NCBI RefSeq assembly: GCF_013127955.1
Contig: NZ_CP053435.1
Span: 4,836,001-4,900,000, forward strand
Direction of reading: 5' to 3'
DNA length: 64,000 bases
From: Spirosoma taeanense
GTDB taxonomy: Bacteria; Bacteroidota; Bacteroidia; Cytophagales; Spirosomataceae
The position numbers were made by a program, and so were the translations under genes. Position 1 is the stretch's first letter. Each line of letters starts with the position of its first letter. The notes beneath the pieces were generated by a model. That model saw nothing but the letters and a program-made list of their open reading frames with translations, had not been told where the DNA came from and made no database searches. Shown here piece after piece: positions 3,521-56,589 of the stretch.

Positions 3521-3645
3521 CAGTTGCTACCGCTTACTCGAATCCGGCCGATGGTTACGTGCAAACGCGCATTGGGCGGTTGCTTCGCATATGAACTCCC
3601 TTAATTTTGTCTGATTCAGGGCACACCAAGTACCTTCAGCGGGCA

Positions 3646-19064: not shown

Positions 19065-19625
19065 TTAAAGTTTATCCGCCCGGAACGAATACTGTTCGAA
19101 AATCAGGTTAACGGCCTGTTTGATTTTGTTTTCGTCGCGGTCAAATCCGTTGGTATTGGTTAGGCCCGTTGCCAATCCGCGCCATACGACCTGGCCGGTC
19201 TTTACGTCCACCAGATTGACAACAATTGAGCCGGGTTTGATATCGAAGGTCGTTACGTCTTCCGGATCGCGCACTTCATTGGAACCGAAGTACGTGCTAC
19301 CGTAGCCGGTATAGCCTTTAACCGTGGCGGCCTTATCGAAGACCCGGAAGTTAACCAGCAGATCGGGCGACTGTCGGGTGAACTTATAGCCCCGCCCGTC
19401 CAGAGCGAATGCTACGGCATCCCGAATTCGTTTTTTGAGCGCTAAATCATTCAGAAAATATAGACCGGGATCGAGCTGGTTGTCTACCTGCGAAGCCCAG
19501 GTATAGGTTTTATACTTACTGAAATCGGTGTTGAGTTTTTTATCGGCATCGACTGTAACGTTCTGCGCCTGCGTCAGGCTGACCGACAGCAGCAGGGCTG
19601 CGGCAATAAAAAATCGCGTTTTCAT
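19065..19625 (-). CDS. DUF4136 envelope protein
   Basis: A 186-residue exported protein: signal peptide MKTRFFIAAALLLSVSLTQAQ, then the DUF4136 pattern. VTVDADKKLNTDFSKYKTYTWA opens it, RIRDAVAFALDGRGYKF sits in the middle, and LVNFRVF, SIVVNLVDVKTGQVVWRG and LIFEQY follow. In many members a Cys makes it a lipoprotein; here no lipobox is seen, so it is probably periplasmic. The biochemical role of DUF4136 is unknown. It has its own 11-bp-period operator array (19675-19713) about 50 bp upstream and its own terminator, so it is a single-gene unit of the predicted stress regulon. Confidence 0.85.
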   Translation of the reverse strand: MKTRFFIAAALLLSVSLTQAQNVTVDADKKLNTDFSKYKTYTWASQVDNQLDPGLYFLNDLALKKRIRDAVAFALDGRGYKFTRQSPDLLVNFRVFDKAATVKGYTGYGSTYFGSNEVRDPEDVTTFDIKPGSIVVNLVDVKTGQVVWRGLATGLTNTNGFDRDENKIKQAVNLIFEQYSFRADKL

Positions 19626-19656: not shown

Positions 19657-19713
19657 CAAACTTGGCGCTCCCGATTTAGAAAGGCCTTAAGGTAAGCTTA
19701 AAATTACCTTAGA
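19657..19713 (-). promoter_or_regulatory. Operator array A and promoter of the DUF4136 gene
   Basis: Plus-strand hexamers TTTAGA (19675), CTTAAG (19686), CTTAAA (19697) and CTTAGA (19708) are spaced exactly 11 bp apart. On the gene's strand a -7-like element CAAGTTTG (consensus TAnnTTTG) lies at 19657-19664, 10 bp from the nearest repeat. There is no TTTG at the -33 position; repeats occupy that region. Confidence 0.75.
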
Positions 19714-22379: not shown

Positions 22380-22952
22380 TTACGGGTTAGTTGGCGAAGC
22401 GGGTAAAAGCGAAGCGGGGTTGTAAAACATAACCAGTGTCCCTAAGCGCTGATTAGGCCCGGTAATCGGCGCCGAAAGCTCATACGGCCGTTTATCGCCA
22501 AAGTAGATCGTTTCCTGCTGAAGCAGATAAGCCGGAAACCGTTCGGCGAACTGGACACCCTGATTTTTCTTATTGGTCGAGATGGTCACCCGGCCTTTTG
22601 GGTCCACCAGCAGCACTTCCCGAACGCCCCGGTCCTTTACCAGAGTATTGAAGTACTCGTTGATTTCGCCCGGCTTGTTCTGCAACAGGGAGTTCCGAAC
22701 GGCCCAGCCAAAGGTTTTCATGCTAAACATGAGCTGCTGTTTGTCGTTGGCAAGCTGATTCTGTTGTACGGTCGTCCGGAGCGTAGTTCGCTCATTCTCA
22801 AATTCTTCGCCAATTTTCCAGTTGCGATAGAGCAGATACCCTACGCCAATACCCAGAAAAAGGATAATAACGCCATACAGCACAACCATTGGACTCAGAT
22901 TGAGTTTGTAACCGCCAATGGTCGTTGTCTTTTCTTCTTGATCGGTAGCCAT
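22380..22952 (-). CDS. Single-pass membrane protein with cache-like extracytoplasmic domain
   Basis: A 190-residue protein I do not recognise as a named family. A short cytoplasmic N-terminus (MATDQEEKTTTIGGYKLN) is followed by one strong membrane helix (VVLYGVIILFLGIGVGYLLYR, about 23-43). A coiled-coil stretch (EEFENERTTLRTTVQQNQLANDKQQ) comes next, then an extracytoplasmic segment resembling a single cache/PAS sensor: REVLLVDPKGRVTISTNKK, GTLVMFYNPASLL. No kinase or GGDEF output is attached. It opens an operon with mscS, DUF421 and an AI-2E-like gene and has operator array B upstream. It may therefore sense the envelope or help assemble the channel. Confidence 0.7.
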   Translation of the reverse strand: MATDQEEKTTTIGGYKLNLSPMVVLYGVIILFLGIGVGYLLYRNWKIGEEFENERTTLRTTVQQNQLANDKQQLMFSMKTFGWAVRNSLLQNKPGEINEYFNTLVKDRGVREVLLVDPKGRVTISTNKKNQGVQFAERFPAYLLQQETIYFGDKRPYELSAPITGPNQRLGTLVMFYNPASLLPASPTNP

Positions 22953-23056: not shown

Positions 23057-23095
23057 GTTAGTCAGGGCTTAATGAAACCTTAGAATTTGGTTAGA
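23057..23095 (-). promoter_or_regulatory. Operator array B upstream of the 22380-mscS-DUF421-AI-2E operon
   Basis: Plus-strand hexamers GTTAGT (23057), CTTAAT (23068), CTTAGA (23079) and GTTAGA (23090) have an exact 11-bp period, 105 bp upstream of the first start codon. The promoter element is less clear than at the other arrays; only GAAA (TTTC on the gene's strand) is found at 23051-23054 at about the expected distance. Confidence 0.7.
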
Positions 23096-24683: not shown

Positions 24684-26399
24684 TTATTGCGTATCGGCTT
24701 CGGTGGCGGGCTCGGCAATTTTAGCCAGATCCTTATTCTCGGGGAAGAAAGACAGTCCTTTCTGAAGCCATTCGTTACGGGCAGCGCTATCCTTGGTCAC
24801 CAGCTCATGGTAGGAGATCAGGTATTTGAACGCCAGCACCAGGTCTTTTTTGTAGCGATTACGTTCTTCCTCCTTGTCGGCTACCATACTGATGAACTGC
24901 TCAAAGTAGGGCTTGGCCTTACCGTTTCGAACGGCTTCTTCCGGCGTGTAAGCGTAATAGTTTGCCTTCGCCCGGTAAAGTACCGTGGGCGCATACTCCG
25001 GTGAGCCTTTCTGCGCCAGGGCCAGTGCCGAATCGGCCAGGGCAAAACGAACCGTGTCGCGCACCAGCTTACCGGCACTATCGCGCTGAAAACCGAGCGT
25101 ATAGTTACTCATACCGTAGCGGAACAAATCCTGTACGTCGGCTTTGAAACCGTGCTTGGCGGCTGAATCAAGAGCGGCTACGGCCTCCGGATGTTTCTTG
25201 GTCCGGTAGTAATATTTGGCGACGTCGCTATACAGATTCTCGGTCGTATCGTAGGGCGCAGCTTTCAGCAGATTGGCGATTCCCAATGAATCGCTGATGG
25301 CTTTCAGCGAATCGCTGCCGGATGACTCTGTACCCAGGTAGGCGCGGCCCAGATACTTATAATCGTCGGGCATGGCCTTACCGGGCGCTTTCTCCAGGAA
25401 CGTATTGATGTTCTGGATAGCCTTCTGGGGCTCGTTCAGCGACGAGTAAGCCCAACCCTGAATCCGGTACACGATGGGGTTCTGCGCCAGGGCCGTCCGG
25501 TTGCTATCGATCAGACTTACAGTCCGCTGGTAATCCTTAGCCAGGAAGTGGAACTGTGCCTGCCGGAGCAGCGTCTCCTGCCGAACATCTTTCGACACGT
25601 TGACATATTGATCAATGTAGTTGGCAGCTTCTTTATAGCGGTTTACCAGGAAGTACAATTCGGCCAGCTGGCTATAAGCTGGTGCATAATTTGGATTGGC
25701 ATCGATGGCTTTTTTATAATTTTCAACGGCCAGATTCAGGTTACGTCCCTGCCAGTAGATATCGCCGATCCGCTGGTATACCCGGGAGGCATCCATACCC
25801 AGTTCCAGAGCCGACTCATAACGGGTAACGGCCGTGCCCGCGTCCTTATTCAGGTAATGAGCATCGCCCAGCGCCAGTTGAATCGCCGAATTTTTCTTAT
25901 CCCGCTCGGCCGCCCGGTTCAGGTAATCGATGGCTTGCGCGGGGTTAACTGCTTTGGGGTACACGGGTTTAATGGAGCCGTTGCCGGGGGTTAGATATCC
26001 GGTGTAAGCCTCGCCAATGCGAAACAGAATATCGGCGTTTTTGCCTTTACTTTTCTTGACAACTTCCGCCAGCTTAGGATCGGCATTGGCCGCGTTATTC
26101 TGAACGAGATAGGTAATGGCAACGCCGGTTTCGTTCAGCGGCACCCGCTTTTCGTCCATAGGTATTCCTTTCTCGAACCAGATGCGGGCCGAATCAGGCT
26201 GGCCGGCACGGAGATAGCCGTAACCAGCGTCGAAATAAGTTTGAATAGAAGGGTTCTGCTGGGCATTCCGGTTTAGAAGCTGCTTGGCTTCGTCAAAACG
26301 GCCCAGACTCATGAGCGTACTGGCATCGGGAGCTGGCGTCTGCGCCAGAGCGGAACCAGCCAGCCCCACAAGAAGGAATAGGGTTATGTGCGTTTTCAT
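24684..26399 (-). CDS. Secreted TPR-repeat protein
   Basis: A 571-residue protein with signal peptide MKTHITLFLLVGLAGSALAQ, then a nearly continuous array of helix pairs of the tetratricopeptide type. Clear repeats include QTYFDAGYGYLRAGQPDSARIWF, IDYLNRAAERDKKNSAIQLALGDAHY, LNLAVENYKKAIDANPNYAPAYSQLAELYFL and VYRIQGWAYSSLNEPQKAIQNI. The Gly/Ala/Pro positions of TPRs are conserved. No catalytic domain is attached, so it is probably a periplasmic scaffold. Operator array C lies upstream and terminators flank both sides, making it a single-gene unit. The sequence gives no partner; neighbouring envelope proteins of the same predicted regulon are candidates. Confidence 0.82.
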   Translation of the reverse strand: MKTHITLFLLVGLAGSALAQTPAPDASTLMSLGRFDEAKQLLNRNAQQNPSIQTYFDAGYGYLRAGQPDSARIWFEKGIPMDEKRVPLNETGVAITYLVQNNAANADPKLAEVVKKSKGKNADILFRIGEAYTGYLTPGNGSIKPVYPKAVNPAQAIDYLNRAAERDKKNSAIQLALGDAHYLNKDAGTAVTRYESALELGMDASRVYQRIGDIYWQGRNLNLAVENYKKAIDANPNYAPAYSQLAELYFLVNRYKEAANYIDQYVNVSKDVRQETLLRQAQFHFLAKDYQRTVSLIDSNRTALAQNPIVYRIQGWAYSSLNEPQKAIQNINTFLEKAPGKAMPDDYKYLGRAYLGTESSGSDSLKAISDSLGIANLLKAAPYDTTENLYSDVAKYYYRTKKHPEAVAALDSAAKHGFKADVQDLFRYGMSNYTLGFQRDSAGKLVRDTVRFALADSALALAQKGSPEYAPTVLYRAKANYYAYTPEEAVRNGKAKPYFEQFISMVADKEEERNRYKKDLVLAFKYLISYHELVTKDSAARNEWLQKGLSFFPENKDLAKIAEPATEADTQ

Positions 26400-26452: not shown

Positions 26453-26508
26453 CAAGGTACAGGGCAGACTTAAGAGCAGGCTTAGATTAAACTTAGAATT
26501 GGCTTAGA
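26453..26508 (-). promoter_or_regulatory. Operator array C upstream of the TPR gene
   Basis: Plus-strand hexamers CTTAAG (26469), CTTAGA (26481), CTTAGA (26492) and CTTAGA (26503). The steps are 12, 11 and 11 bp. On the gene's strand a weak -7-like TACCTTG overlaps 26453-26459. The nearest repeat is 70 bp from the start codon. Confidence 0.72.
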
Positions 26509-26622: not shown

Positions 26623-27543
26623 TTAAAAAAACCAGAAGCTGTCCCGGAACTGAAATTCAACCGAACCCAGATAAGCATCTTTCGTGAACACGAAGGCCCG
26701 ATACAAACCAGGCTTGATGTCGTCGGATGGCGTGATGCTGAACGTAATTCGTTGCGGACTACGCCCGAAGTTTACGTTCTGCACGGCATGAACCGGTATG
26801 ATCTCGTTTACGTCGGCCAGCGAGATAGTCGTGGTCCGGAGTGGCGGCATCATATTGTTCTGATTCTCGTCTTTCAGACTCAGGTACACTTCCTGCATAC
26901 CGTTTAGATCAAGTTCGCCCGGTACGTTCAGAGAAACCAGTAGGGTATGCACCTTCTTGGCTTTGGCGGTTTCTTTCTTATTGCGCTTCTCAGCTTCCAC
27001 CCGGAAGGCGTCAGCTGTTACGGCCGAGCGTGGTACCATTGTAAGCAGCGTTGCATTAAGGGCGGTCACGTTCTGCTGCAGCTCCTTATTCTGGCTGGTC
27101 AGCAGGCTGTTGGAATCCGTTAGCCACGAGATTTTATCATTCACGGCCACCATCTGGTTTTCCAGGCTATCGCGTACTGTCTGCAATCCGGCAATGTTAT
27201 GGTTCAGGTCCCGGATGGTGCGGGTCCGACCCAGGTTGCCCTGCCGAAGTTCACGCACAATGCGGTCCCGGCTGACGATCAGCCCCTGGAGGTCGGTTAG
27301 GCGTTTGTCGAGGGAAGCCTTCTCACCCGTAGATGTTTCAATCTGGTTCTGCAAAGTCCTGATATCGCCTTCCAGCCGGATTTTGACCGCCAGCAGCGAG
27401 TCAGCCCGCTGCTCAGCGTCGTTATTCTGCCGGGTCAGCGTCTGGTTTCGCTGCCAGAAATAAATACTCCCGACCAGAAACAGGGCCATCAGGCCGCTGA
27501 CGATACCCAGGTATACGTTTCCTCTTTGTTCATTGTTTTCCAT
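26623..27543 (-). CDS. Membrane-anchored coiled-coil protein of unknown function
   Basis: A 306-residue protein. The N-terminal membrane helix VYLGIVSGLMALFLVGSIYFW (about 10-30) is followed by a long coiled coil to about residue 175 with heptad-like stretches (ADSLLAVKIRLEGDIRTLQNQIE, KASLDKRLTDLQGL, LTSQNKELQQNVTALNATLL). The C-terminal 120 residues form a beta-rich globular domain: HTLLVSLNVPGELDLNGMQEVYLSL, ITFSITPSDDIKPGLYRAFVFTKDAYLGSVEFQFRDSFWFF. No family is recognised. The topology resembles periplasmic adaptor or septum-type proteins, with the C-terminal domain projected away from the membrane. Array D lies directly upstream with a good -7 element, and the gene has its own terminator. 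Confidence 0.7.
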   Translation of the reverse strand: MENNEQRGNVYLGIVSGLMALFLVGSIYFWQRNQTLTRQNNDAEQRADSLLAVKIRLEGDIRTLQNQIETSTGEKASLDKRLTDLQGLIVSRDRIVRELRQGNLGRTRTIRDLNHNIAGLQTVRDSLENQMVAVNDKISWLTDSNSLLTSQNKELQQNVTALNATLLTMVPRSAVTADAFRVEAEKRNKKETAKAKKVHTLLVSLNVPGELDLNGMQEVYLSLKDENQNNMMPPLRTTTISLADVNEIIPVHAVQNVNFGRSPQRITFSITPSDDIKPGLYRAFVFTKDAYLGSVEFQFRDSFWFF

Positions 27544-27580: not shown

Positions 27581-27636
27581 CAAACTTACCTGGTGCCTTT
27601 AACAGGGGCTTAAGGAAAACTTAAAATTTGCTTAGA
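27581..27636 (-). promoter_or_regulatory. Operator array D and promoter of the coiled-coil protein gene
   Basis: Plus-strand hexamers TTTAAC (27598), CTTAAG (27609), CTTAAA (27620) and CTTAGA (27631), exact 11-bp period. On the gene's strand TAAGTTTG, a perfect TAnnTTTG element, lies at 27581-27588, 9 bp from the first repeat. No -33 TTTG is present, because repeats cover that position. This is the clearest of the seven arrays. Confidence 0.8.
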
Positions 27637-27675: not shown

Positions 27676-28920
27676 TCAATTATTCGGATATAGCCGCCGG
27701 ATAAGGCGCTCCATTGTTAGCCCCTGGCCGATAACCGAGAACAAGACCACAGCGTAGGTAATCGTCACGATCAGGTCTTTATGCGGCAGTTCATTCGGAA
27801 TCGACAGGGCCATGGCGATGGACAACCCACCCCGTAAACCACCCCAGGTCAGCATGATCGGCGCTTTATCGTCGAGGTCAAGCCAGCGCCGGGCCAGGCG
27901 GAACGGAACCCAGATGGCAATAAATCGGGCTGTCAGGACCAGCAACACCGACGCAATACAGATTACCCAGTAGGCCGACTGAAAATCAATGAGTAATAAT
28001 TCGAGGCCAATGAGCACAAACAGCAGCGCATTGAGGATACTGTCAATCAGTTCCCAGAATTTATCGACGTATTCTTCGGTCTGGCGGCTCATTGCTTCGT
28101 GCCGGGCGTGGTCGCCAACAAACAGGCCAGCCACCACCATGGCCAGCGGCCCCGATATATGCAGTCGTTGTGCCAGCAGATAACCGCCCATGACGCCCGC
28201 TACGGTAATGATGACTTCGGTTTGATAGTGGTTGATCGAGCGTAGCAACCAATACATAGCGTAGCCCAGCGCCAGGCCGAACAGAATACCGCCCCCGGCT
28301 TCTTCCAGAAACAGAAGGGCGATCTCTCCTCCTGTGATACTATCGGCTCCGTTGACCACGATCCGGTAAATGGAGGCAAAAACAACTACGCCCACCCCAT
28401 CGTTGAATAGCGACTCGCCCACAATATTGAGCTTTACGCTTTCGGGCAGTTTGAATTTTGCCAGAATTCCCAGCACGGCAATCGGATCGGTGGGTGAAAT
28501 TAAGGCGCCAAACAACAGGCAGAGCATATAGGGCAGGGGAAAGCCTAACCCACCCGCTATGTAGTAGAGTCCGGTGCCCACCAGCCCCGTGCTCAGCATT
28601 ATGCCCACTAGTGCAAACAGCATCACCGACCGGCGCTCGACCCGTAGCTGGGCCGCATCGGTGTGGAATGCCCCGGCAAACAGCAGGAAACTGAGCATCA
28701 CGTCGAACAGCAGCCAGCCGAAATCAATCTGGGCAACTGACTCCCGGATCAGCTTGAACCAGGAAGGTATGGTTGCATTGAGCGCAATCAGTATTAGTGA
28801 AAACAGGAGTGACAGCACCATGACTCCAATGGCGTCGGGGAGTTTTAGCAGCCGGGTATTCAGGTAGGCAAACAAGGCCGCTATGACAAGCAGGAGTGTA
28901 GTGAGCGTAAATAAATCCAT
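27676..28920 (-). CDS. Na+/H+ antiporter, CPA1 family
   Basis: A 414-residue membrane protein with about 12 hydrophobic segments. CPA1 signatures are present: GALISPTDPIAVLGIL, the ion-binding Asn-Asp in GESLFNDGVGVVVF, and the arginine motif TWGGLRGGLSIAMALS. It exchanges Na+ (or K+) for protons across the inner membrane and so serves pH and salt tolerance. It lacks the long cytoplasmic tail of the NhaP2/YcgO subgroup. It is divergent from the DUF389 gene with 85 bp between start codons. No complete 11-bp array was found in that gap, only isolated ATTAGA at 28932. Confidence 0.93.
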   Translation of the reverse strand: MDLFTLTTLLLVIAALFAYLNTRLLKLPDAIGVMVLSLLFSLILIALNATIPSWFKLIRESVAQIDFGWLLFDVMLSFLLFAGAFHTDAAQLRVERRSVMLFALVGIMLSTGLVGTGLYYIAGGLGFPLPYMLCLLFGALISPTDPIAVLGILAKFKLPESVKLNIVGESLFNDGVGVVVFASIYRIVVNGADSITGGEIALLFLEEAGGGILFGLALGYAMYWLLRSINHYQTEVIITVAGVMGGYLLAQRLHISGPLAMVVAGLFVGDHARHEAMSRQTEEYVDKFWELIDSILNALLFVLIGLELLLIDFQSAYWVICIASVLLVLTARFIAIWVPFRLARRWLDLDDKAPIMLTWGGLRGGLSIAMALSIPNELPHKDLIVTITYAVVLFSVIGQGLTMERLIRRLYPNN

Positions 28921-29005: not shown

Positions 29006-30400
29006 ATGATTGTTAACGACCCTAACCTACCCCGCACCAAACCACCAGACCCACTGGCTCGTTTCGGCGCTTTTCTGCGGGACCGCTTTAGTCTGGAAGA
29101 AGATAAGGAAGAAGAAGCCGCCATTATTCAATCCATCAGCCGGGGCATTGAGTTTAAAGGGGTTAATTTATGGACACTCATTTTCGCCATTTTCATTGCG
29201 TCAATTGGTTTAAATGTTAACTCCACGGCCGTTATTATCGGAGCCATGCTTATATCGCCGTTGATGGGCCCGATTATGGGCGTCGGGCTAGGCATTGGCA
29301 TCAATGACCTGACCCTCATTCAGCAGTCGCTCAAAAACCTGGCGATTGCGTGTTTCATCAGTCTATTGACATCAACTGTTTACTTTTTGGTTAGTCCGCT
29401 GCATATCGCTCAATCTGAGTTGCTGGCCCGTACGTCGCCAACCGTCTGGGATGCTTTTATTGCTTTTTTCGGCGGTCTGTCGGGTATTGTGGCCGGTTCG
29501 CGCCGGGATAAAATAACCAACGTAATTCCAGGGGTGGCCATCGCCACGGCTCTTATGCCGCCCCTCTGCACGGCCGGTTACGGGCTTTCGACGGGTAACC
29601 TGTATTACTTTGCCGGTGCATTCTACCTGTTTCTCATCAACAGCGTTTGTATCAGTCTGGCGACCTATCTTATTGTGCGTTTTCTGGGTTACCACCAGAA
29701 AGAGTATCCTACGCCTGAGATAGAGCGCCGGGTGCGGCACACCATCTGGCTGGCCGTGCTGGTGGTGGTGGTTCCCAGCAGTTACCTCGGTTATCAGATT
29801 GTTCGGAAGACTATCTTTGAACAGGCTGCCAAGCGTTTTGTTGCCAATGAATGTAATTTCCAGTACCGGCAGGTAATCAATTACGCGGCTCGCTTCAGCC
29901 GTCGGCAGAGTAAACTGGAACTGACTCTGGTGGGTGAACCGCTACCAGCGGATTCTATTAACTTACTGCGCTCCAAAATGCCAGCCTATGGTCTGGAAGA
30001 TTCGCAGCTTGTTATCAAACAGGGAAGCTTCAAGGACGCCGAAGTAGACGTTGATGCCATTACGAACACGGTGACCGATCAGGTAATTAAATACAGCCAG
30101 TCGTCGATTGCCCAGAAAGATCAGATCATTGACTCCCTCCGCCGACAGCTTGATATTACGCAAAACACCAATATTCCGGTCGCTGATCTGCGAAATGAGC
30201 TGAAAACGCTGATGCCCGACGTGCAAACCTTCACCGCAGCCCAGTCGCTGGTCATGAGCGGAAACAGCCCAAAGCCAGATACCGTCCTGCTGGTTTATGC
30301 CAAGTTCTCCCGGCGGCATACGGCCGCCGAGCGATACCGGATCCAGAGGTGGCTGCAGAGCCGCACGAAAAGCAAACGGATCAAATTGCTGGTTGATTAA
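29006..30400 (+). CDS. DUF389 membrane protein (TIGR00341-like)
   Basis: A 464-residue protein. The DUF389 core occupies about residues 50-260. It contains LWTLIFAIFIASIGLNVNST, the strongly conserved AVIIGAMLISPLMGPIMGVGLG, and further helices ACFISLLTSTVYFLVS, VIPGVAIATALMPPLCTAGYGL and LVVVVPSSYLGYQ. The C-terminal 200 residues are soluble, with a coiled-coil-like stretch (SIAQKDQIIDSLRRQLDIT). The biochemical role of DUF389 is not settled. The gene is divergent from the antiporter and convergent with the small membrane protein gene. Confidence 0.88.
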   Translation: MIVNDPNLPRTKPPDPLARFGAFLRDRFSLEEDKEEEAAIIQSISRGIEFKGVNLWTLIFAIFIASIGLNVNSTAVIIGAMLISPLMGPIMGVGLGIGINDLTLIQQSLKNLAIACFISLLTSTVYFLVSPLHIAQSELLARTSPTVWDAFIAFFGGLSGIVAGSRRDKITNVIPGVAIATALMPPLCTAGYGLSTGNLYYFAGAFYLFLINSVCISLATYLIVRFLGYHQKEYPTPEIERRVRHTIWLAVLVVVVPSSYLGYQIVRKTIFEQAAKRFVANECNFQYRQVINYAARFSRRQSKLELTLVGEPLPADSINLLRSKMPAYGLEDSQLVIKQGSFKDAEVDVDAITNTVTDQVIKYSQSSIAQKDQIIDSLRRQLDITQNTNIPVADLRNELKTLMPDVQTFTAAQSLVMSGNSPKPDTVLLVYAKFSRRHTAAERYRIQRWLQSRTKSKRIKLLVD

Positions 30401-30418: not shown

Positions 30419-30454
30419 GATATTCCCGGCCTACCGCAGTAAACCGGGAATATC
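30419..30454. terminator. Convergent hairpin at the end of the DUF389 and small membrane protein genes
   Basis: A perfect 11-bp inverted repeat (30419-30429 with 30444-30454), 18 bp beyond the DUF389 stop. It overlaps the last codons of the minus-strand small gene. In the minus direction TTTT follows at some distance. Confidence 0.6.
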
Positions 30455-30646
30455 AACCAGCCAGGCAATAAATAGCGTAATCAGGGAAAGAATAGCGACC
30501 AGAATCAGGAGCCAGTCGGGCTTACGGGGCGGTTTATCGCCGGGCGGGCGATTCATGCGGCTCAACACTGGCGATGGATCGGACTGACTGACGGAGCCAG
30601 GCAAAATAAACGAGGTATATAAATAAATCAGTGCTTGGTAGGTCAT
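30431..30646 (-). CDS. Small single-pass membrane protein, predicted stress-regulon member
   Basis: A 71-residue ORF. Its C-terminus is a clear membrane helix (WLLILVAILSLITLFIAWLV) preceded by a Pro/Lys-rich stretch (NRPPGDKPPRKPD). No family is recognised. Two starts are possible. The ATG at 30646 gives 71 residues; the ATG at 30556 gives 41 and looks like a plain tail-anchored peptide. Array E and its -7 element at 30670-30677 lie right upstream. The short leaders of the other array-controlled genes (about 25-31 bp) favour 30646. The support for this being a real gene is the dedicated promoter plus the good membrane helix; homology was not tested. Confidence 0.55.
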   Translation of the reverse strand: MTYQALIYLYTSFILPGSVSQSDPSPVLSRMNRPPGDKPPRKPDWLLILVAILSLITLFIAWLVDIPGLLR

Positions 30647-30669: not shown

Positions 30670-30726
30670 CAAAGATGTTAACAGCGACTTAATTTTCGCT
30701 GATAAACTCCTTAGAATCTGCTTAGA
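30670..30726 (-). promoter_or_regulatory. Operator array E and promoter of the small membrane protein gene
   Basis: Plus-strand hexamers CTTAAT (30688), degenerate CTGATA (30699), CTTAGA (30710) and CTTAGA (30721) are in exact 11-bp phase. An in-phase GTTAAC at 30677 overlaps the -7-like CATCTTTG (gene strand, 30670-30677), which is 10 bp from the 30688 repeat. The rest of the gap to the response regulator gene shows nothing clear. Confidence 0.72.
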
Positions 30727-30863: not shown

Positions 30864-31541
30864 TTACTCTTCCCTGAACATATAGCCCATACCAAAATGG
30901 GTATGAATTAATTTCTGCGGGAAGTCTTTATCCATTTTTTTCCGTAGGTAGTTGATATACACCTCCACGACGTTGGTGCCCGTATCGAAGTTTATATCCC
31001 ATACATGCTCGGCAATTTCCGGCTTCGACAGCACCCGTCCTTTATTGTGCATCAGAAACTGCAGTAGGGCAAATTCGCGCGCTGTCAGGTCAATTGCCCG
31101 CCCGTCGCGCGTTACGGTTTTGGCATCCAGGTTTATCTCCACACCGCCATAGCGTAGAATCTGGGCGGTAATGGCTACCTGCCGGTTTCGCTTGGTCAGC
31201 GAACGCACACGGGCGAGCAATTCGCCGAATTGAAACGGTTTGGTCAGGTATTGATCGGCTCCGGCGTCGAACCCCGTCACTACGTCGTCTGTACCGCTTA
31301 ATGCCGTCAGGATAAGCAGGGGCGTGGTTAAGCCCTCGGCCCGCAACTGTCGGCAGAGTTCGTAGCCATTCAGGCCGGGCAGCACCAGATCGGTGATAAT
31401 GGCGGCATAATCATTCTTGAGCGCGAGCCGCTTCGCAATCAGTCCATCATAGGCGATGTCGACCTCAAACTGGCTTTCTTCCAGCCCCTGCTGGATTGCC
31501 TGCAGTGTTTTCGGCTCGTCTTCAACAACCAGGAGTTTCAT
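30864..31541 (-). CDS. OmpR-family response regulator, no partner kinase adjacent
   Basis: A 225-residue two-domain regulator. The receiver has acidic residues E7-D8-E9, phospho-acceptor D51 in ITDLVLPGLNG, T79 in LILTAL and K101 in LTKPF. The winged-helix DNA-binding domain contains LTAREFALLQFLMHNKGRVLSK, the recognition helix region TNVVEVYINYLRKKMD, and the wing IHTHFGMGYMF. That places it in the CusR/RprY-like part of the OmpR family. A gene for a sensor kinase normally follows such a regulator; here the neighbours are the OtsAB fusion and the small membrane protein gene. Its own upstream region has no 11-bp array. Family members bind direct repeats as tandem dimers, so it is the natural candidate reader of arrays A-G. 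Confidence 0.92.
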   Translation of the reverse strand: MKLLVVEDEPKTLQAIQQGLEESQFEVDIAYDGLIAKRLALKNDYAAIITDLVLPGLNGYELCRQLRAEGLTTPLLILTALSGTDDVVTGFDAGADQYLTKPFQFGELLARVRSLTKRNRQVAITAQILRYGGVEINLDAKTVTRDGRAIDLTAREFALLQFLMHNKGRVLSKPEIAEHVWDINFDTGTNVVEVYINYLRKKMDKDFPQKLIHTHFGMGYMFREE

Positions 31542-31683
31542 AGCGGTAAGCCAGGATGCGTTACTGGATCATTGGTTCAGTCTAAGCATATAGAGGGCAG
31601 TCGGCCACCAGACAGCGAATAGCCGCCTACCCGACATTTGCTTCCGAATGGAGAGTAAGGTTTTGCTGCCGTGCTTAGTAGCT

Positions 31684-33900
31684 TCAGACTTCAATCAGCG
31701 CTTCGCTCATTCGCTGCAGGAGGGTTTCTACATCCTGTTGCCGGGCTAACCGGTAGCGTGCATTGGATACCCCCGCCCCTACTTTTACGGTGTAGGCCCA
31801 GTTTGGCAACTGCCGGAACATATCCTCGTCGGTAGTATCGTCGCCAATGCTCACAATAAAGTCATAGGGCGTTTGCTCGAAGATGTTGAGCGCTACGGTG
31901 CCTTTGCTATGCTGAGCGGGTTTAACCTCAATGACTTTACTGCCCTGGATAACGGTCAGCGGAATTGAAAAGGCTCCCCCCCGCAGCTGCGTAGCCAGTT
32001 CGACAGCCTGCGTTTCGATGTCATCGGCCTCAACCTTCCGATAGTGCCAGACGATAGCGGTTTCTTTTTCTTCGATGAACGAACCTTCAAACCGCTCTAC
32101 ATACTGGTTCATCACGGACCGGGCTGGCTCAACCCAGTCGCCCGCCGACAAATCGAGCCGTTCCCAGTCCTGGTCGGGCTTTTTCAGAAAGGCACCGTGC
32201 TCGGCGACCAGGTAAACCGGAATACCGTCGAATATTTTTTCCAGAAAGGATCGGTTTCGACCACTGATAACCACCAGATCGCTGTTCTCGGCTAACTGAT
32301 ACAAGGCCTTTTTCAGCGTTTCGGACGGACGCGCTTCGGCCGGATCGTTGACAATAGGGGCTAGGGTTCCGTCGAAATCGAACAGCAGCAGGCGCTGACG
32401 GGCTTCACCAAAGGCGTGAATAAACGGTTGTACGGGTAAGTCGGTTTCCATATCAGGTTGATTACTTAACACATCGTCGAAAGCGGTGAGAAATTCGCTG
32501 CTCCACCGGAAAACATTGTGATTCTGCAGATGCGTCCGCATGCTCAGTAAGCGTCGTTCCTGCTCCTGCGGACTCATGTTCAGGCCCTGTTTAATAGCAT
32601 CGGCCACTTCCTGCGTGTCGGTAGGATTAATGATTACGGCCTCTTTCAGTTCCTGGGCGGCACCGGCCAGTTCGCTCAGAATCAACACCCCGTGCAGGTC
32701 CTGCCGGCTGGCGACAAACTCCTTGCAGACCAGATTCATGCCATCGCGGATGGGCGTAATAAGAGCAATATCGCAGCCGGTATATAAAGCCATCAGCTCG
32801 GTGAAGGTCAGCGATGTGTAGGAATACACAATGGGCCGCCAGCCAATGGTACCAAACAGGCCGTTAATGCGGCCAACTGTCTCTTCAATTTCCCGCTTGA
32901 TTTCCTGGTAATGCCCAATTTTATCCCGCGATGGAACAACCGTAATCACAAACGTAACCTTGTCGTGCCAGTCGGGATTCTGGAGCAGGAACCGCTCGTA
33001 GCCTTGTAGGCGGTAGGTAATTCCTTTTGTATAATCGAGTCGATCGACCGAGAAGATAATTTTGTTGTTCCGGAGCAGGTTCTGGTAATGCTGCCGGGTT
33101 TCGACCACGTCGGTTTCCTGCCCGGTCAGATTAAACTTGTTAAAATCAATGCTAATCGGAAAATCCCGCACCACCACCGATCGGTCGGGTAACACAATCC
33201 GCTGACCAATAATGGGCAGGTTCGTTACCTCCGATACGCTCTGCATGAAATACTGCACGTAATCGACAGTATGGAAGCCTACAATATCAGCGCCCAGTAT
33301 TCCCCTAACCAACGCCTGACGCCAGGTGCGCGGCAATAGTTTGATGATTTCGTAAGACGGGAAGGGGATATGGAAAAAATAACCGATTGTTATGTTGGGC
33401 ATGGCCTGCCGCAGCATATCGGGCAGTAACATCAGTTGAAAATCGTGAATCCAGACCAGATCGCCCGGCTCGACAAAAGCGGTCAGCTCTTCCAGAAAAC
33501 GCGTGTTGGCCTGCTGATAATGGTCAAAATCGCTTTCTCGGAACGAGGCATAGGACGGAAAATAATGAAATAACGGCCAGATTAAATCGTTACTGAAACC
33601 TTCGTAAAACCCTTTATGGACGACCTCATCCATAAAAACCGGATGGGCCACGAATGTATCATTTTCCAGAGTAGCCGGATCAATTTGCTGGAGGGACGCA
33701 TCGCCATGGCCTAGCCAATGGATTTTAGAGGCCATGCCTTCCTGACTCTGCCCCATCCGCTCGGCCATGGACAGCACAGCCGAAACTAGACCGCCCGAAT
33801 TCTGAATTAATTCTGCACCCTGTTCCGTCTGCTTTACGGTAAATGGTAAACGATAAGAAACAATAAGTAGTCGTTTGAATGATGATTTAGAATTTTTCAT
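31684..33900 (-). CDS. Bifunctional trehalose-6-phosphate synthase / trehalose-phosphatase (OtsA-OtsB fusion)
   Basis: A 738-residue cytosolic fusion. Residues 10-475 are a GT20 synthase: NSGGLVSAV near 34-42, WIHDFQLMLLP, SVDRLDYTKGITYRLQGYERF at 284-304, and RDGMNLVCKEFVASR. It makes trehalose-6-phosphate from UDP- (or GDP-/ADP-) glucose and glucose-6-phosphate. Residues 500-735 are a HAD-type phosphatase with the nucleophile motif DFDGT at 508-512, VVISGRNR, and GDDTTDEDMF for metal binding. It releases free trehalose. This synthase-phosphatase order is found in plants, yeast and several Bacteroidota. The gene is divergent from treS across a 306-bp regulatory region holding array F. Confidence 0.95.
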   Translation of the reverse strand: MKNSKSSFKRLLIVSYRLPFTVKQTEQGAELIQNSGGLVSAVLSMAERMGQSQEGMASKIHWLGHGDASLQQIDPATLENDTFVAHPVFMDEVVHKGFYEGFSNDLIWPLFHYFPSYASFRESDFDHYQQANTRFLEELTAFVEPGDLVWIHDFQLMLLPDMLRQAMPNITIGYFFHIPFPSYEIIKLLPRTWRQALVRGILGADIVGFHTVDYVQYFMQSVSEVTNLPIIGQRIVLPDRSVVVRDFPISIDFNKFNLTGQETDVVETRQHYQNLLRNNKIIFSVDRLDYTKGITYRLQGYERFLLQNPDWHDKVTFVITVVPSRDKIGHYQEIKREIEETVGRINGLFGTIGWRPIVYSYTSLTFTELMALYTGCDIALITPIRDGMNLVCKEFVASRQDLHGVLILSELAGAAQELKEAVIINPTDTQEVADAIKQGLNMSPQEQERRLLSMRTHLQNHNVFRWSSEFLTAFDDVLSNQPDMETDLPVQPFIHAFGEARQRLLLFDFDGTLAPIVNDPAEARPSETLKKALYQLAENSDLVVISGRNRSFLEKIFDGIPVYLVAEHGAFLKKPDQDWERLDLSAGDWVEPARSVMNQYVERFEGSFIEEKETAIVWHYRKVEADDIETQAVELATQLRGGAFSIPLTVIQGSKVIEVKPAQHSKGTVALNIFEQTPYDFIVSIGDDTTDEDMFRQLPNWAYTVKVGAGVSNARYRLARQQDVETLLQRMSEALIEV

Positions 33901-33937: not shown

Positions 33938-33994
33938 CAAATAACGCGGCTGCGGCTTAGAGGGGGCTTAACCTAATCTTAGAAACTCCTTAGA
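33938..33994 (-). promoter_or_regulatory. Operator array F in the divergent otsAB-treS control region
   Basis: Plus-strand hexamers CTTAGA (33956), CTTAAC (33967), CTTAGA (33978) and CTTAGA (33989), exact 11-bp period. A further CTTAGA at 34044 is still in phase (5 x 11 bp). The gene-strand element GTTATTTG at 33938-33945 keeps the TTTG of the -7 box, 10 bp from the first repeat. The remaining stretch 33995-34206 towards treS shows no clear promoter that I can defend. Confidence 0.75.
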
Positions 33995-34206: not shown

Positions 34207-37200
34207 ATGGCAAAAGACACTATTGAGTTAGACGATAATCTCCACTGGTACAAGGATGCAATTATATACGAACTACACATCAAGGCTTTCCGGGATGGCA
34301 ACGGCGATGGAATCGGCGACTTCCAGGGCCTGCTCGAAAAGCTGGATTATCTGCAGGAACTGGGCGTTACAGCCATCTGGCTGCTTCCCTTCTATCCATC
34401 GCCCCTGCGCGACGACGGCTACGACATTGCCGATTACTACACCATTAACCCGTCCTACGGGAATATTGAACAGTTCAGGCGGTTTCTCGACGAAGCCCAC
34501 CAGCGAAACCTGAAAGTCATTACCGAGCTGGTTATCAACCACTCCTCCGACCAGCACCCCTGGTTTCAGCGGGCCCGCAAGGCGCCCAAAGGCTCGCCCG
34601 AGCGCGAATATTACGTCTGGACCGACGACCCGACCCAATACAAAGACGTCCGGATTATTTTCCAGGATTTCGAGGTCTCCAACTGGACCTGGGACAACGT
34701 AGCGCAACAGTACTACTGGCATCGTTTTTTCCATCACCAGCCCGACCTCAATTACGACAACCCGCTGGTTCAGGAAGAGGTGTTCAAAATGATCGACTAC
34801 TGGTGCGACATGGGCGTCGATGGCTTCCGGCTCGATGCCGTTCCGTATCTGTTTGAGCGGGAAGGCACCAACGGCGAAAACCTGCCCGAAACCCACGCGT
34901 TCCTCAAAAAGCTGCGTAAACACATTGATGACCGGTATCCGGGCGTCGTCTTTCTGGCCGAAGCGAATATGTGGCCCGAAGATTCGGCTTCCTACTTCGG
35001 TGATGGCGACGAATGCCACATGAATTACCATTTTCCGGTCATGCCCCGCATGTTCATGGCGCTGCAGATGGAAGACCGGTACCCGATTACCGATATTTTC
35101 GACCAGACACCCGAAATCCCCAAAACCTGTCAATGGGCCATCTTTCTGCGGAACCACGACGAGCTTACGCTCGAAATGGTAACCGACGAAGAGCGGGATT
35201 ACATGTATAAGACGTATGCCAAAGACCCCAAAGCCAAAATCAACCTCGGTATCCGCCACCGGCTAGCCCCGCTGATGGGTAACAACCGCAAGCGGATCGA
35301 GCTCCTGAACAGTCTGCTGTTTTCGCTGCCCGGTACGCCGGTGCTGTATTACGGCGATGAAATTGGCATGGGCGACAACGTGTATCTGGGCGACCGCGAC
35401 GGCGTTCGTACGCCCATGCAGTGGTCCCCCGACCGGAACGCCGGTTTCTCTAGTACGAACCCGCAGAAGCTGTACCTGCCAACGATTCTGGACCCCGAAT
35501 ACCACTACGAATCCGTGAACGTGGAAACGCAGCGACGTAATACGTCCTCGCTGTTCTGGTTCACCAAGCGGATGATTAACCTGCGCAAGACGTATAAAGC
35601 GTTTGGACGGGGAGATCTGAAGTTTGTGAACGTAGAGAACCCCAAGGTGCTTGCCTTTACCCGTTCCTACGAAGACGAAACGCTCCTGATCGTCGTCAAC
35701 CTGTCGAAATACGCGCAGCCGGCAGAAATTGACCTCAGTGAACACAAAGGCGATAGCCTGATCGAAGCCTTCAGCCGAAACCAGTTTCCGGCCGTGCCTG
35801 ATACGGGGGCTTACTTTTTTACGTTGGCCCCGCACGACTACCAGTGGTTTGTGCTGAAGAAAACCCATGTCGAAGCGGCCGAACGCGAGTTACTGCCCAC
35901 CCTCAAAGTCCGCAATCGCAGCGAACTGGTCAACAGCCGCAGCCGCGAAAAGCTCGAAAACCAGATACTGCCTGATTATCTGGCCCGCGTTGACTGGTTC
36001 GGCGGCAGAGGTCAGAACCTGTTCGGAGTCAGCGTTACGGACTATGGCGTGATTCCGCTGGCCGACACGAAAGTATATATACTGCTGATTGAGGTTTCGT
36101 ATGAACGGGGGCTGCCCGAGACCTACCAGCTCCCCGTGATGTACGTCAGCGACCAACATGCCGCCCGGATGCGGGAGAACTGTCCGCAGGCTGTGCTGGC
36201 TAACCTCAATGTAGGTAACGAAGAAGGCGTTCTCTGCGATGCGCTCTACACCGCCGAATTTCAGCAGGCCCTGCTTCACCAGATAGTTGACGGAAAGACG
36301 CAGTCCGGAACCGGAAGCCCGGTGCTTTTCCAGAGCAGCCCGGCGCTGGACGCCTATGTCCGCGAACATCCCGAAATTCGCTCGAAACTGCTCACCACAA
36401 GTCAGGGCTATACGTCCATTAGTTACGATAACTGCTTTCTGCTGAAAATATACCGGAAGGTCGACCAGGCCCTTAACCCCGACGTTGAAATCAACCGGTA
36501 TCTGTCCGAAACCGCCGGGTTCGAATACGTTCCGGCCTTCTCCGGCGTCATTGAACTTCAGTCGGCCAGCCACCCCGTAACGCTGGGTATGATGCAGGTC
36601 ATGGTGGCCAATCACGGCGACGGTCACAGCTTCATGCTGGAGCGGATCAACAACTTCATTGAACGGATTCTGGCGCGGGATCAGGCTCAGCTGGATGCCA
36701 CTGACCGCAAAGGGCTCCTTTCTGAGCCGGTTGGTTTTGAAGAGTTGTCGGCCGATAAACAGGAATTGCTGGGCGTTCGGGCGGAGCAGGCACGGCTGAT
36801 GGGTGTGCGGTTAGGCGAAATGCATCTGGCGCTGGCGGCTGGCGACGACGTAAAAGATTTTACGCCGGAAGCCTTCTCGCTCCATTACCAGCGATCGCTA
36901 TTTTCGGGTATGCAGTCGCTGGTTCGCGAAGCCTACCAGAACCTGCACAAAAATCGGCAACGGCTTCCCGATGATGTGCGGCAGGACGCCGAGCAGTTAT
37001 CCGACCGTAAAGACGAGATTCTGACCACCCTCAAACGCATCTACAGCAAGAAGCTCGATACGGCTAAAATTCGTATTCATGGCGATCTGCGGCTGGAAAA
37101 GATTCTGTTTACCGGTAAGGATCTTGCCATTCAGGATTTTGGTGGCGATCCGCGACGCAGTTACAGCGAACGGCGGCTGAAACGTTCTCCGCTGCGCGAC

Positions 37201-37518
37201 GTTGCCGCCATGATCCGCTCGTTTTATTACGTAGCCTACGAGGGCTTCCTGCAGAATAATCAGGTGCCTGCCGACGAAACCCTGCGGCTCCTGCCGTTCG
37301 CTGATTTCTGGGCGCACTATATGAGCGGCTTTTTCCTGAAGGCTTATCTACAAACGGTTCAGAACAGCGTTTTCATTCCGAACCAGACCGATTTGCAGAT
37401 GATGCTGGAAACCTACCTGCTGGAGAAGGCTTTTCTGGATTTAAATGATGATCTTAGCCACCATCCCGATAGAGTACGGGCACCGTTGCAAATCATTAAA
37501 TCAATCCTTGGTCGATAG
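34207..37518 (+). CDS. treS: Trehalose synthase - maltokinase fusion (TreS-Mak/Pep2)
   Basis: A 1103-residue cytosolic protein. Residues 10-555 are a GH13 trehalose synthase that interconverts maltose and trehalose: YELHIKAFRDGNGDGIGDF, nucleophile D210 in GFRLDAV, acid/base E252 in FLAEANMWPED, and the FLRNHDELT region. The rest is a maltokinase-like domain with VDWFGGRGQN at its start and the catalytic loop HGD (D960) followed by metal-binding D977 in QDFGGD. In well-studied maltokinases the loop reads HGDxHLGQ and IDFEGE. Here the Gln is replaced by Lys965, the second His by Arg962, and the Glu by Gly, so kinase activity is uncertain. The normal role is to link trehalose to maltose-1-phosphate and glycogen-like glucan via GlgE, which is not in this window. 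Confidence 0.93.
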   Translation: MAKDTIELDDNLHWYKDAIIYELHIKAFRDGNGDGIGDFQGLLEKLDYLQELGVTAIWLLPFYPSPLRDDGYDIADYYTINPSYGNIEQFRRFLDEAHQRNLKVITELVINHSSDQHPWFQRARKAPKGSPEREYYVWTDDPTQYKDVRIIFQDFEVSNWTWDNVAQQYYWHRFFHHQPDLNYDNPLVQEEVFKMIDYWCDMGVDGFRLDAVPYLFEREGTNGENLPETHAFLKKLRKHIDDRYPGVVFLAEANMWPEDSASYFGDGDECHMNYHFPVMPRMFMALQMEDRYPITDIFDQTPEIPKTCQWAIFLRNHDELTLEMVTDEERDYMYKTYAKDPKAKINLGIRHRLAPLMGNNRKRIELLNSLLFSLPGTPVLYYGDEIGMGDNVYLGDRDGVRTPMQWSPDRNAGFSSTNPQKLYLPTILDPEYHYESVNVETQRRNTSSLFWFTKRMINLRKTYKAFGRGDLKFVNVENPKVLAFTRSYEDETLLIVVNLSKYAQPAEIDLSEHKGDSLIEAFSRNQFPAVPDTGAYFFTLAPHDYQWFVLKKTHVEAAERELLPTLKVRNRSELVNSRSREKLENQILPDYLARVDWFGGRGQNLFGVSVTDYGVIPLADTKVYILLIEVSYERGLPETYQLPVMYVSDQHAARMRENCPQAVLANLNVGNEEGVLCDALYTAEFQQALLHQIVDGKTQSGTGSPVLFQSSPALDAYVREHPEIRSKLLTTSQGYTSISYDNCFLLKIYRKVDQALNPDVEINRYLSETAGFEYVPAFSGVIELQSASHPVTLGMMQVMVANHGDGHSFMLERINNFIERILARDQAQLDATDRKGLLSEPVGFEELSADKQELLGVRAEQARLMGVRLGEMHLALAAGDDVKDFTPEAFSLHYQRSLFSGMQSLVREAYQNLHKNRQRLPDDVRQDAEQLSDRKDEILTTLKRIYSKKLDTAKIRIHGDLRLEKILFTGKDLAIQDFGGDPRRSYSERRLKRSPLRDVAAMIRSFYYVAYEGFLQNNQVPADETLRLLPFADFWAHYMSGFFLKAYLQTVQNSVFIPNQTDLQMMLETYLLEKAFLDLNDDLSHHPDRVRAPLQIIKSILGR

Positions 37519-37609: not shown

Positions 37610-37663
37610 TTAGAAAACAGGCCATACAGTCTATAAACGGCTCTGGACTGGCCTGTTTTCTAA
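37610..37663 (+). terminator. Terminator after treS
   Basis: A perfect 15-bp inverted repeat (37610-37624 with 37649-37663), about 90 bp past the treS stop. The arms contain an A4/T4 run. Its right arm overlaps the first hexamer of array G. Confidence 0.7.
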
Positions 37664-37697
37664 GTAAATTTTAAGATTTCTATAAGCCAGTTCTAAC
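37659..37697 (+). promoter_or_regulatory. Operator array G upstream of the sterol-desaturase-family gene
   Basis: Plus-strand TCTAAG (37659), TTTAAG (37670), TATAAG (37681) and TCTAAC (37692) have an exact 11-bp period. They are the reverse complement of the hexamers in arrays A-F, as expected for a plus-strand gene. A weak -7-like element (TTCTTTTA, 37708-37715) lies at the same 10-bp distance. The rest of the 331-bp gap (37519-37849) holds only the treS terminator. Confidence 0.72.
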
Positions 37698-37849
37698 CCG
37701 GAATAAATTCTTTTACGGAGAAGAGGACATATTGATTTCCGTGCATTACATGGGCGGCCAGAACCCAACCCGGGACAATGGGTAGCCAACAGGAGCTCGG
37801 TACAGTATCGCTGCTCTTTCGTCAGCTTTTTATCAATTACCAACTATTC

Positions 37850-38773
37850 ATGAATGAACCTCTTTTCGGTGCCCCAGAAATTTCATTAGAGAACCTGTCA
37901 ACGATTGAACAATCAGCTCCCAACCTGATTCTGTGGGCGGTTCCCGTGATGCTCCTGTTTACCGCTCTGGAAATGTTTATCACCTTTAAACAGGAGCACC
38001 CGTTTTACGAGAAGCGGGAAACAATCGGTTCAATTCTGGTTGGGCTGGGATCGCTGGTAGTCGGGGCGTCCATCAAGTTTGCGCTTCTATACGCTACCGT
38101 CTGGCTATACAATCAGCTACCGTGGCGGATGTCGCTGCAGTGGTGGACCTTTATTCCCTGCTACATAATTTTTGATTTCTGCAGCTACTGGGCGCACCGC
38201 GTGTCGCACGAACAGCGGTTCTGGTGGGCTACGCACGTTGTGCACCATTCGGGCGAGCATTATAACCTTACGGTTTCCTTCCGGCTGAGCTGGATTCAGA
38301 ACCTGAAAACAATATTTTTCCTGCCGGTTGCCCTGATTGGCTTTCACCCGGTTGTGTTCTTCACAACCAACCAGGTTGCCGTACTTTTCCAATTCTGGGT
38401 GCATACCGAATACATTCGTCGTTTACCGAAGTGGGTAGAGTTTATCTTTGCAACGCCCTCCAATCACCGCGTCCACCACGGTTCGCAGCCAAAATATATT
38501 GACCGGAATTTCGGGGCTACGTTCATTGTCTGGGATCGGATTTTCGGTACCTACCAGCCCGAAGAAGAGCCGCCTATCTATGGCATAACCACCAATATTA
38601 CCCAGAAGGCAAACCCGTTCATGATCAATTTTCACGAGGTAGCCGACATTATCCGCGACGTAAAAGCGGCCAGAGGTTTCCGCCGAAAATTGTTTTTTAT
38701 CTTCGGCAGCCCAATAAAAATAGCGGAAGAAAAACAGCAGAAGCTAAACAAAGAAGCTGTAATAGCAGACTAG
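37850..38773 (+). CDS. Sterol desaturase / fatty-acid hydroxylase family membrane protein
   Basis: A 307-residue integral membrane di-iron enzyme from the ATG at 37850 (MNEPLFGAPE). An in-frame ATG at 37778 would add 24 residues and cannot be excluded. Membrane segments occur around NLILWAVPVMLLFTALEMF, TIGSILVGLGSLVVGASIKFALLY and the central TIFFLPVALIGFHPVVFF. The histidine boxes are HRVSH, HVVHHSGEHYN and HRVHHG, the usual HxxxH, HxxHH and HxxHH set. It should hydroxylate or desaturate a lipid chain in the membrane, but the substrate is unknown. Operator array G puts it in the same predicted regulon as trehalose synthesis, which suggests lipid remodelling under stress. Confidence 0.9.
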   Translation: MNEPLFGAPEISLENLSTIEQSAPNLILWAVPVMLLFTALEMFITFKQEHPFYEKRETIGSILVGLGSLVVGASIKFALLYATVWLYNQLPWRMSLQWWTFIPCYIIFDFCSYWAHRVSHEQRFWWATHVVHHSGEHYNLTVSFRLSWIQNLKTIFFLPVALIGFHPVVFFTTNQVAVLFQFWVHTEYIRRLPKWVEFIFATPSNHRVHHGSQPKYIDRNFGATFIVWDRIFGTYQPEEEPPIYGITTNITQKANPFMINFHEVADIIRDVKAARGFRRKLFFIFGSPIKIAEEKQQKLNKEAVIAD

Positions 38774-56528: not shown

Positions 56529-56589
56529 AAGCGAATTTGCCACTCTATTCTTTTCTCTTTTCAAAGTTTGTCTGTCGGGAAACTTACAT

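Follow-up and report, generated by a model that had tools for sequence, protein, structure and literature searches.

A kinase-less OmpR-family response regulator of Spirosoma taeanense as the probable reader of 11-bp CTTAGA promoter arrays

The pho box of PhoB consists of 11-bp direct repeats replacing the upstream promoter element, and the CusR site is palindromic. PmrA recognizes the half-sites CTTAAT and CCTAAG in head-to-tail arrangement, both of which are occupied by the full-length protein once it is activated with BeF3 (PMC3973317). AgrR of Cupriavidus metallidurans is an OmpR-type response regulator (RR) that is active without phosphate after inactivation of its kinase (PMC7380067). 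The locus considered here lies in a window of 64,000 nucleotides, the whole stretch of S. taeanense DNA that was analyzed, and combines arrays of the hexamer CTTAGA with RR-A, an OmpR-family response regulator proposed as their reader. Like the PhoB sites, these arrays are 11-bp direct repeats in the place of the upstream promoter element, although the hexamer is different. PmrA/BasR is likewise an OmpR-family regulator, and its half-sites (PMC3973317) are two and three letters away from CTTAGA; in contrast, three or four half-sites are present here instead of two, the promoter is of the Bacteroidota type, and the targets are trehalose and transporter genes. CusR/CzcR/CopR provides the best NCBIfam match and shares the RR-kinase operon and, for some arrays, a position facing HlyD/CusB-type efflux operons, whereas the repeats here are direct and the main other targets are trehalose and membrane genes. 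AgrR resembles RR-A as an OmpR-type regulator working after kinase loss but, as described in PMC7380067, has an ATTACA inverted-repeat core with an extra direct repeat at some sites and concerns a laboratory mutant rather than a natural loss. By analogy, array reading may work like PmrA or PhoB. No earlier description of the RR clade or of the array was found in the literature searched, mostly outside subscription journals.

A preliminary description of this DNA had proposed RR-A as the likely reader of the arrays, and the co-occurrence of the two across genomes supports the proposal, strictly for the clade of RR-A. In a family survey of 222 genomes (orthologues at 76% identity or more), at least three exact CTTAGA-N5-CTTAGA pairs, the definition of array-positive, occur in 43 of the 47 genomes with an RR orthologue vs 0 of the 175 without; the latter have a mean of 0.27 exact pairs and a maximum of 2, with any pair in 40. 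The exceptions with an RR are G217 (71% complete, one pair), G173 and G190 (two pairs each), and G106 (none). The last of these carries an RR of 78% identity (C313:130527-131195) and a kinase, no exact CTTAGA pair genome-wide, and one looser three-unit array elsewhere. Presence and absence also alternate within genera: three genomes of genus g32 (G168, G169, G171) have the RR and 5-7 pairs and two (G170, G172) have neither, while in genus g50 the RR accompanies 4-5 pairs in G214 and G215 and both are missing from G216. Among Spirosoma genomes, with the orthologue threshold at 79% identity or more, the 29 with an RR hold 3-10 exact pairs vs 0-2 in the seven without (Mann-Whitney p 4.5e-5). An rpoB tree was built from 33 genomes of the genus out of 36 (G002, G021, and G033 gave no rpoB match). 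The RR switches state six times along it, and in all six independent pairs the arrays, at three pairs or more, switch in the same direction; the sign test gives p 0.031, the minimum attainable with six. These changes are read here as losses, on a tree that cannot separate gain from loss. On these comparisons of genomes, the assignment of array reading to the RR-A clade is well supported and very probably correct.

The trehalose gene OtsAB goes with the regulator, being found at 70% identity or more in 28 of the 29 RR-positive genus genomes vs 1 of the 7 RR-negative ones, with the copy in G015 broken. The package of RR, OtsAB, and arrays is therefore usually gained or lost whole and, since RR and targets travel together, one deletion could take regulator, targets, and arrays at the same time. 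The only genome separating targets from regulator is G003, which lacks the RR and retains OtsAB (70%) and TreS (73%) in the divergent arrangement of the window; no array was found at this pair within the 20 kb examined. The natural regulator losses, one kinase loss, and this one array-less target pair constitute ready-made tests. Regarding the broken copy in G015 (G015:C1:8010169-8012378), OtsAB is split by an internal stop and the adjoining TreS is in two pieces, while relatives have intact copies. A record titled Flavobacterium sp. SUN052 (L205) contains an RR 86% identical and is probably a misnamed Spirosoma relative.

Within the window, the chain finder returns eight arrays (seven distinct, one being a second reading of the array at 26481) vs two in the reversed sequence. 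Six lie on the plus strand and face minus-strand genes. Array A (19675-19713, four units) faces a DUF4136 gene (19065-19625), array B (23057-23095, four units) a gene without a Pfam match (22380-22952), array C (26481-26508, three exact units) a TPR gene (24684-26399), and array D (27609-27636, three units) another gene without a Pfam match (26623-27543). Array E (30688-30726, four units at 11 bp) faces the gene of a 71-aa protein (30431-30646), a conserved target without a Pfam match; this gene or a homologue is faced by 20 arrays in 37 regions, the window's included. Array F (33956-33994, four units) faces OtsAB (31684-33900), a bifunctional trehalose-6-phosphate synthase/phosphatase, with a TTTG 14 nt beyond its last unit. 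Array G (37659-37697, four degenerate units) is on the minus strand and faces a fatty-acid hydroxylase gene (37778-38773) on the plus strand. The island further includes a Na+/H+ exchanger (27676-28920, minus strand), a DUF389 membrane protein (29006-30400, plus strand), and a TreS/maltokinase fusion (34207-37518, plus strand), which is array-faced in some relatives (5 of 168 arrays) and by none in the window. RR-A lies between arrays E and F, as originally described, with OtsAB in the same interval; in most relatives, a kinase gene sits between array E and the RR.

RR-A (30864-31541, minus strand) encodes 225 aa from an ATG start. Its membership of the OmpR family, already suggested in the preliminary description, is borne out by Pfam: a receiver domain (PF00072, residues 4-113) scores 91.1 bits against a cutoff of 30.2, and a Trans_reg_C domain (PF00486, residues 147-222) 89 bits against 26.2. 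The receiver residues of the OmpR/PhoB family are kept in the translated sequence, namely the phospho-acceptor D51 and the conserved T79 and K101, and the recognition helix, read off the translated gene like all helices reported here, is TNVVEVYINYLRKK. The top NCBIfam model is CusR/CzcR/CopR (TIGR01387) at 234.6 bits, below its curated cutoff of 279.2, for which reason a metal-regulator name was rejected. The scores against PmrA (NF007928, 153.9 bits, cutoff 330), QseB (NF007663, 143.8 bits, cutoff 345), PhoB (TIGR02154, 156 bits, cutoff 296.2), and Bacteroides PhoB (NF053854, 157.3 bits, cutoff 270) also remain below their cutoffs. Judged by these models, RR-A is an OmpR-family member outside every named subfamily tested. 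Purifying selection acts on the gene, with dN/dS at 0.02-0.05 wherever it could be computed and dS close to saturation. At ten positions the residue differs from that of 90% or more of 41 orthologues; three of these positions (161, 165, and 167) cluster in the DNA-binding domain, and the end branch is long (0.16 vs about 0 in sisters), so the activity of RR-A may have shifted. A long branch on its own is no marker of kinase loss, because that of the RR in G168, which has a kinase, is equally long. Codons 161, 165, and 167 are invariant in the 41 orthologues and altered solely in the RR of the window.

The absence of an adjacent kinase, noted in the preliminary description, holds for the window: the neighbors of RR-A are the 71-aa protein and OtsAB, and the three kinase ORFs found elsewhere in the window (3607-5610, a hybrid; 7137-8480; 56509-58005) lie far from it. 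For the clade the orphan status does not stand. At 27 of 30 orthologous loci, a set that includes the paralogue RR-B and one sister-genus locus, the next gene is a kinase of cluster c1, two scanned members of which are HAMP-HisKA-HATPase proteins, and a clade orphan throughout was rejected on this count. A shortened kinase call lies one gene away in G015 and G016, and the window has none; in G214, from another genus, the kinase is also missing within 17 kb of the RR. The 132 bp between the RR-A stop and array E gave no DNA alignment to the kinase at a reporting score of 30, and in the translated comparison 166 of 200 shuffles were equal or better. A relocated copy was rejected as well, since a search of the genome returned the kinase of RR-B (60%) and then a match of 36%. 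On the evidence of these loci, RR-A is a derived orphan, its orphan state resulting from kinase loss.

RR-B (C1:2671632-2672306) is 79% identical to RR-A and has arrays nearby and a kinase adjoining. This kinase, at 60% to the lost type, is the sole close member of the subfamily that the genome still has, and most likely phosphorylates RR-A too. RR-A and RR-B have only one difference in their first 43 residues, a stretch that includes the first receiver helix, and the dimerization helix of the RR-B kinase is close to those of kinases paired with A-type RRs; because of this near-identity and similarity, cross-phosphorylation of RR-A appears likely. The two regulators also share the same recognition helix, and both are on this ground probably array readers. 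Consequently, the original proposal stands for RR-A as a reader and fails for RR-A as the only candidate, RR-B having the same helix, nearby arrays, and a kinase. The joint reading, held at a probability of roughly 0.8, is that the RR-A/RR-B clade binds the 11-bp CTTAGA ladders and activates an envelope/osmotic stress regulon, the RR-A kinase having been lost and the RR-B kinase serving both. Of this reading, co-occurrence, linkage with the 11-bp arrays, promoter register, kinase loss, and the shared helix are seen in the genomes, while binding, activation, cross-phosphorylation, and the signal are inferred. Ancestrally, each RR would have formed an operon with its own HAMP-HisKA-HATPase kinase; the one next to RR-A would then have disappeared without a detectable remnant, and that of RR-B most likely phosphorylates both RRs.

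The same observations could be read with RR-B and its kinase as the working reader and the kinase-less RR-A as a competitor, modulator, or leftover on the same arrays. RR-B alone has the adjoining kinase, its helix is that of RR-A, and RR-A shows a long branch and 10 unusual residues; however, RR-A retains D51, T79, and K101 together with strong purifying selection, and seven arrays persist around it, which makes this division of roles unlikely.

Equally doubtful is the possibility that, with its kinase lost, RR-A functions without phosphorylation and the regulon is expressed constantly or according to RR-A abundance. A precedent for an RR active without phosphate is AgrR of Cupriavidus (PMC7380067), and OtsAB, which has the same orientation as RR-A and lies 142 bp upstream of it, could provide array-driven feedback. 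Against it stand the closely matching kinase still present in the genome and the receivers of RR-A and RR-B, with their one difference in the first 43 residues. Regarding the promoter of RR-A itself, the preliminary description correctly found no array, there being none within 400 bp upstream; a lone CTTAGA on the minus strand at 31581-31586 was seen by eye. An array driving the RR was rejected for the clade, since none of the 30 orthologous loci has one facing it; at 12 of the 30 an array faces away from the RR, 93-153 bp upstream, and in G196, outside this set, an array does face the RR at 44 bp. OtsAB is directly upstream on the same strand at 8 of the 30 loci, the window included, so that read-through from its array could feed back on RR-A. 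With an array-bearing gene placed upstream in the same direction, the earlier suggestion that RR-A is constitutively made is not supported; its activation by phosphorylation, suggested in the same place, is an inference.

The joint reading, with the clade as array reader, is also reflected in the position of the arrays. The entire genome of the window contains eight exact pairs vs one for the reversed pattern, all eight within 13 kb of RR-A or RR-B, and the pattern CTTA-N7-CTTA-N7-CTTA has eight genome sites, all near one of the two regulators, vs 0 when reversed. None of the seven other full-length OmpR genes in this genome shares the helix or has an array within about 3.5-4 kb; a tenth OmpR match, a weak one, is not part of this count. 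The exact pairs listed for 26 RR-positive genomes, a set without G009, G013, G029, and part of G015, merge into 129 arrays, of which 84 are no more than 25 kb from an RR vs 0.9 expected. At least one array falls within this distance in 24 of the 26 genomes, again among the exact pairs listed; in the other two, G007 and G010, no array does so, and the one nearest to OtsAB is about 5 kb upstream of it. The remaining 45 of the 129 merged arrays, on the same listed pairs, lie farther than 25 kb away; some of them are due to chance, since the reversed pattern gives 13 in these 26 genomes, and six are beside a second type of RR (G025, G026, G035). The others point to a reader acting in trans. Furthermore, in G008, G013, G024, and G028, whose OtsAB sits at a distance from the RR or on a different contig, an array still directly precedes the gene.

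Arrays without an orthologue, which the preliminary description had held to speak against the assignment, are seen only as one or two exact pairs per genome in 40 of the 175 genomes lacking the RR, three of them in the genus (G003, G019, G034). In two of these three, another two-component pair is adjacent. The sole array of G003 (L144:8114-8174, six units) precedes an outer-membrane/membrane-fusion/pump operon, identified by eye, and lies beside an RR-kinase pair whose RR has the helix TNVVEVYINYLRKK letter-for-letter in an otherwise diverged protein. In G019, an array of five units (L145:6111-6160) precedes a similar efflux operon; a kinase is present there too, and an RR was matched at 52%. 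G034 stays unexplained: it has two pairs, and a three-unit array (L146:6748-6775) precedes an OmpA-like gene with no regulator seen nearby. The second-type RRs of G025, G026, and G035 are beside two-unit CTTAGA arrays, and the helix in G026 is again TNVVEVYINYLRKK.

That another island regulator reads the arrays while the RR merely co-travels is very improbable. Since the RR is found on the same islands as its targets and as one package with them, linkage alone yields co-occurrence; nevertheless, no transcription factor is found among the Pfam-scanned neighbor clusters (c2-c9, c11, c14, c16, c17, c20, c27, c28, and the kinase; for c10, c12, c13, c15, c18, and c19 the sequences were inspected by eye). 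In addition, RRs at distant loci that have the same helix adjoin the same kind of array, and some arrays are far from the RR.

A sister regulator of 58-59% identity is accompanied by a different hexamer. Four-unit CTTAAA ladders follow its kinase directly in G030, G019, and G006 (L141:5573-5611, L142:7265-7303, and L140:3503-3541), and its recognition helix is TNVIEVYVNFLRKK in G030 and G019 and TNVIEVYINFLRKK in G006. The 59% paralogue was rejected as a reader of CTTAGA arrays, as it has CTTAAA arrays of its own.

The arrays themselves are highly regular. In the 37 regions (1.26 Mb, the window plus regions of relatives), exact CTTAGA pairs 6-40 bp apart occur solely at 11 (120), 22 (36), and 33 bp (19). 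The chain finder returns 194 arrays vs 18 in the reversed sequence, or 118 vs 1 with four or more units, and removal of overlapping lower-scoring readings reduces the 194 to 168. Hexamers are conserved in the arrays and spacers vary. On the CTTAGA strand, the one or two units preceding an exact pair are partly conserved and those following it are not, so that, viewed toward the gene, the exact pair usually forms the upstream end. Of the 168 arrays, 142 have a gene start at most 400 bp away on the opposite strand from CTTAGA and 83 have one on the same strand (opposite alone 72, same alone 13, both 70, neither 13). Same-strand starts are common because many arrays lie between divergent genes. 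For the array preceding the efflux operon near RR-B (L070:9459-9486), the finder reads both strands, likewise in several relatives. The three-pair threshold, the 25 kb and 40 bp distances, the array score cutoffs, and the TAnnnT pattern used below were chosen by the authors, several of them after seeing the data.

The Bacteroidota -7 element is TAnnTTTG, with TTTG at its heart. In 98 of the 168 arrays, this TTTG follows the last unit at 13-15 or 24-26 nt, vs 2.4 expected from other offsets, and the same is seen in 4 of the 7 window arrays (19675, 27609, 30688, 33956); the longer offset is about one unit extra, the finder having missed the last unit. The T of the leading TA is mostly missing in array promoters, being present in 7 of 93. 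The fixed distance between array and TTTG suggests that the array occupies the place of the -33 element, in the geometry of an activator replacing it, and the same fixed register points to activation. In the proposed mechanism, RR-A or RR-B would bind head to tail on three or four CTTAGA half-sites (TCTAAG on the coding strand) at 11-bp spacing and activate the downstream gene, phosphorylated dimers filling the ladder from the exact pair toward the promoter. With the array standing in for the -33 element, the bound ladder would touch RNA polymerase directly, as with PhoB and PmrA, and hold it at a core promoter that has the -7 part only. The predicted regulon comprises trehalose synthesis, small membrane proteins, and ion and efflux transporters, and would be an envelope/osmotic stress regulon. 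Slippage can create tandem repeats, but that the arrays are nonregulatory structural repeats or mobile-element remnants is barely conceivable when hexamers are kept while spacers vary, the TTTG register is fixed in 98 of 168 arrays, and 142 of the 168 are within 400 bp of the gene start they face. The assignment would provide a regulator for a Spirosomaceae promoter code, with regulon genes predicted in dozens of genomes.

Ladders of the same spacing extend beyond the family. Among 80 loci scanned up to 3 kb on either flank, arrays are present in 25 of 26 at 76% identity or more, in all 5 at 59-69%, and in 27 of the 49 at or below 54%, vs 3, 2, and 7 in the reversed controls of the same classes. 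A motif-free scan covered 42 of the 49 distant loci (seven were left out) over the 200 bp where the long ORF behind the RR, the presumed kinase, ends, accepting five of six letters; a hexamer repeated three times was found at spacing 11 in 17 of the 42, vs 0 or 1 at the other spacings from 7 to 16. The 17 loci are in records titled Elusimicrobia, Omnitrophota, Aminicenantes, Formosa, Spirosoma, and others. A T(T/C)TAA ladder is present in 26 of the 49 distant loci, and 24 of these ladders lie 1.8-2.5 kb downstream of the RR start. In 19 of the 26, TAnnnT lies exactly 11 nt after the third unit vs 0-4 at other offsets, for a pattern picked after inspection of these data, and TTTG occurs at 25 in four. 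The ORFs after ten distant ladders are varied, five without a Pfam match and the others of no common family.

These findings lean, by a narrow measure, toward the window being one branch of an old multi-phylum module, in which a CusR-like RR and a kinase would be followed by an 11-bp ladder of three or four rungs in core-promoter register (TTTG in Bacteroidota, a TAnnnT -10 element elsewhere), with helix changes tracking the hexamer (CTTAGA, CTTAAA, ATTAAA). If the cross-phylum pattern holds, the binding sites of a large RR clade could be predicted from its helices and hexamers, with no need for organism-by-organism experiments, and, if the covariation of helix and hexamer is true, the regulons of many uncultured bacteria would be readable from sequence. 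The exact string CTTAGAATAACCTTAGA was observed in seven genomes of genus g30 and one of g25, for example at G122:C12:243278-243294.
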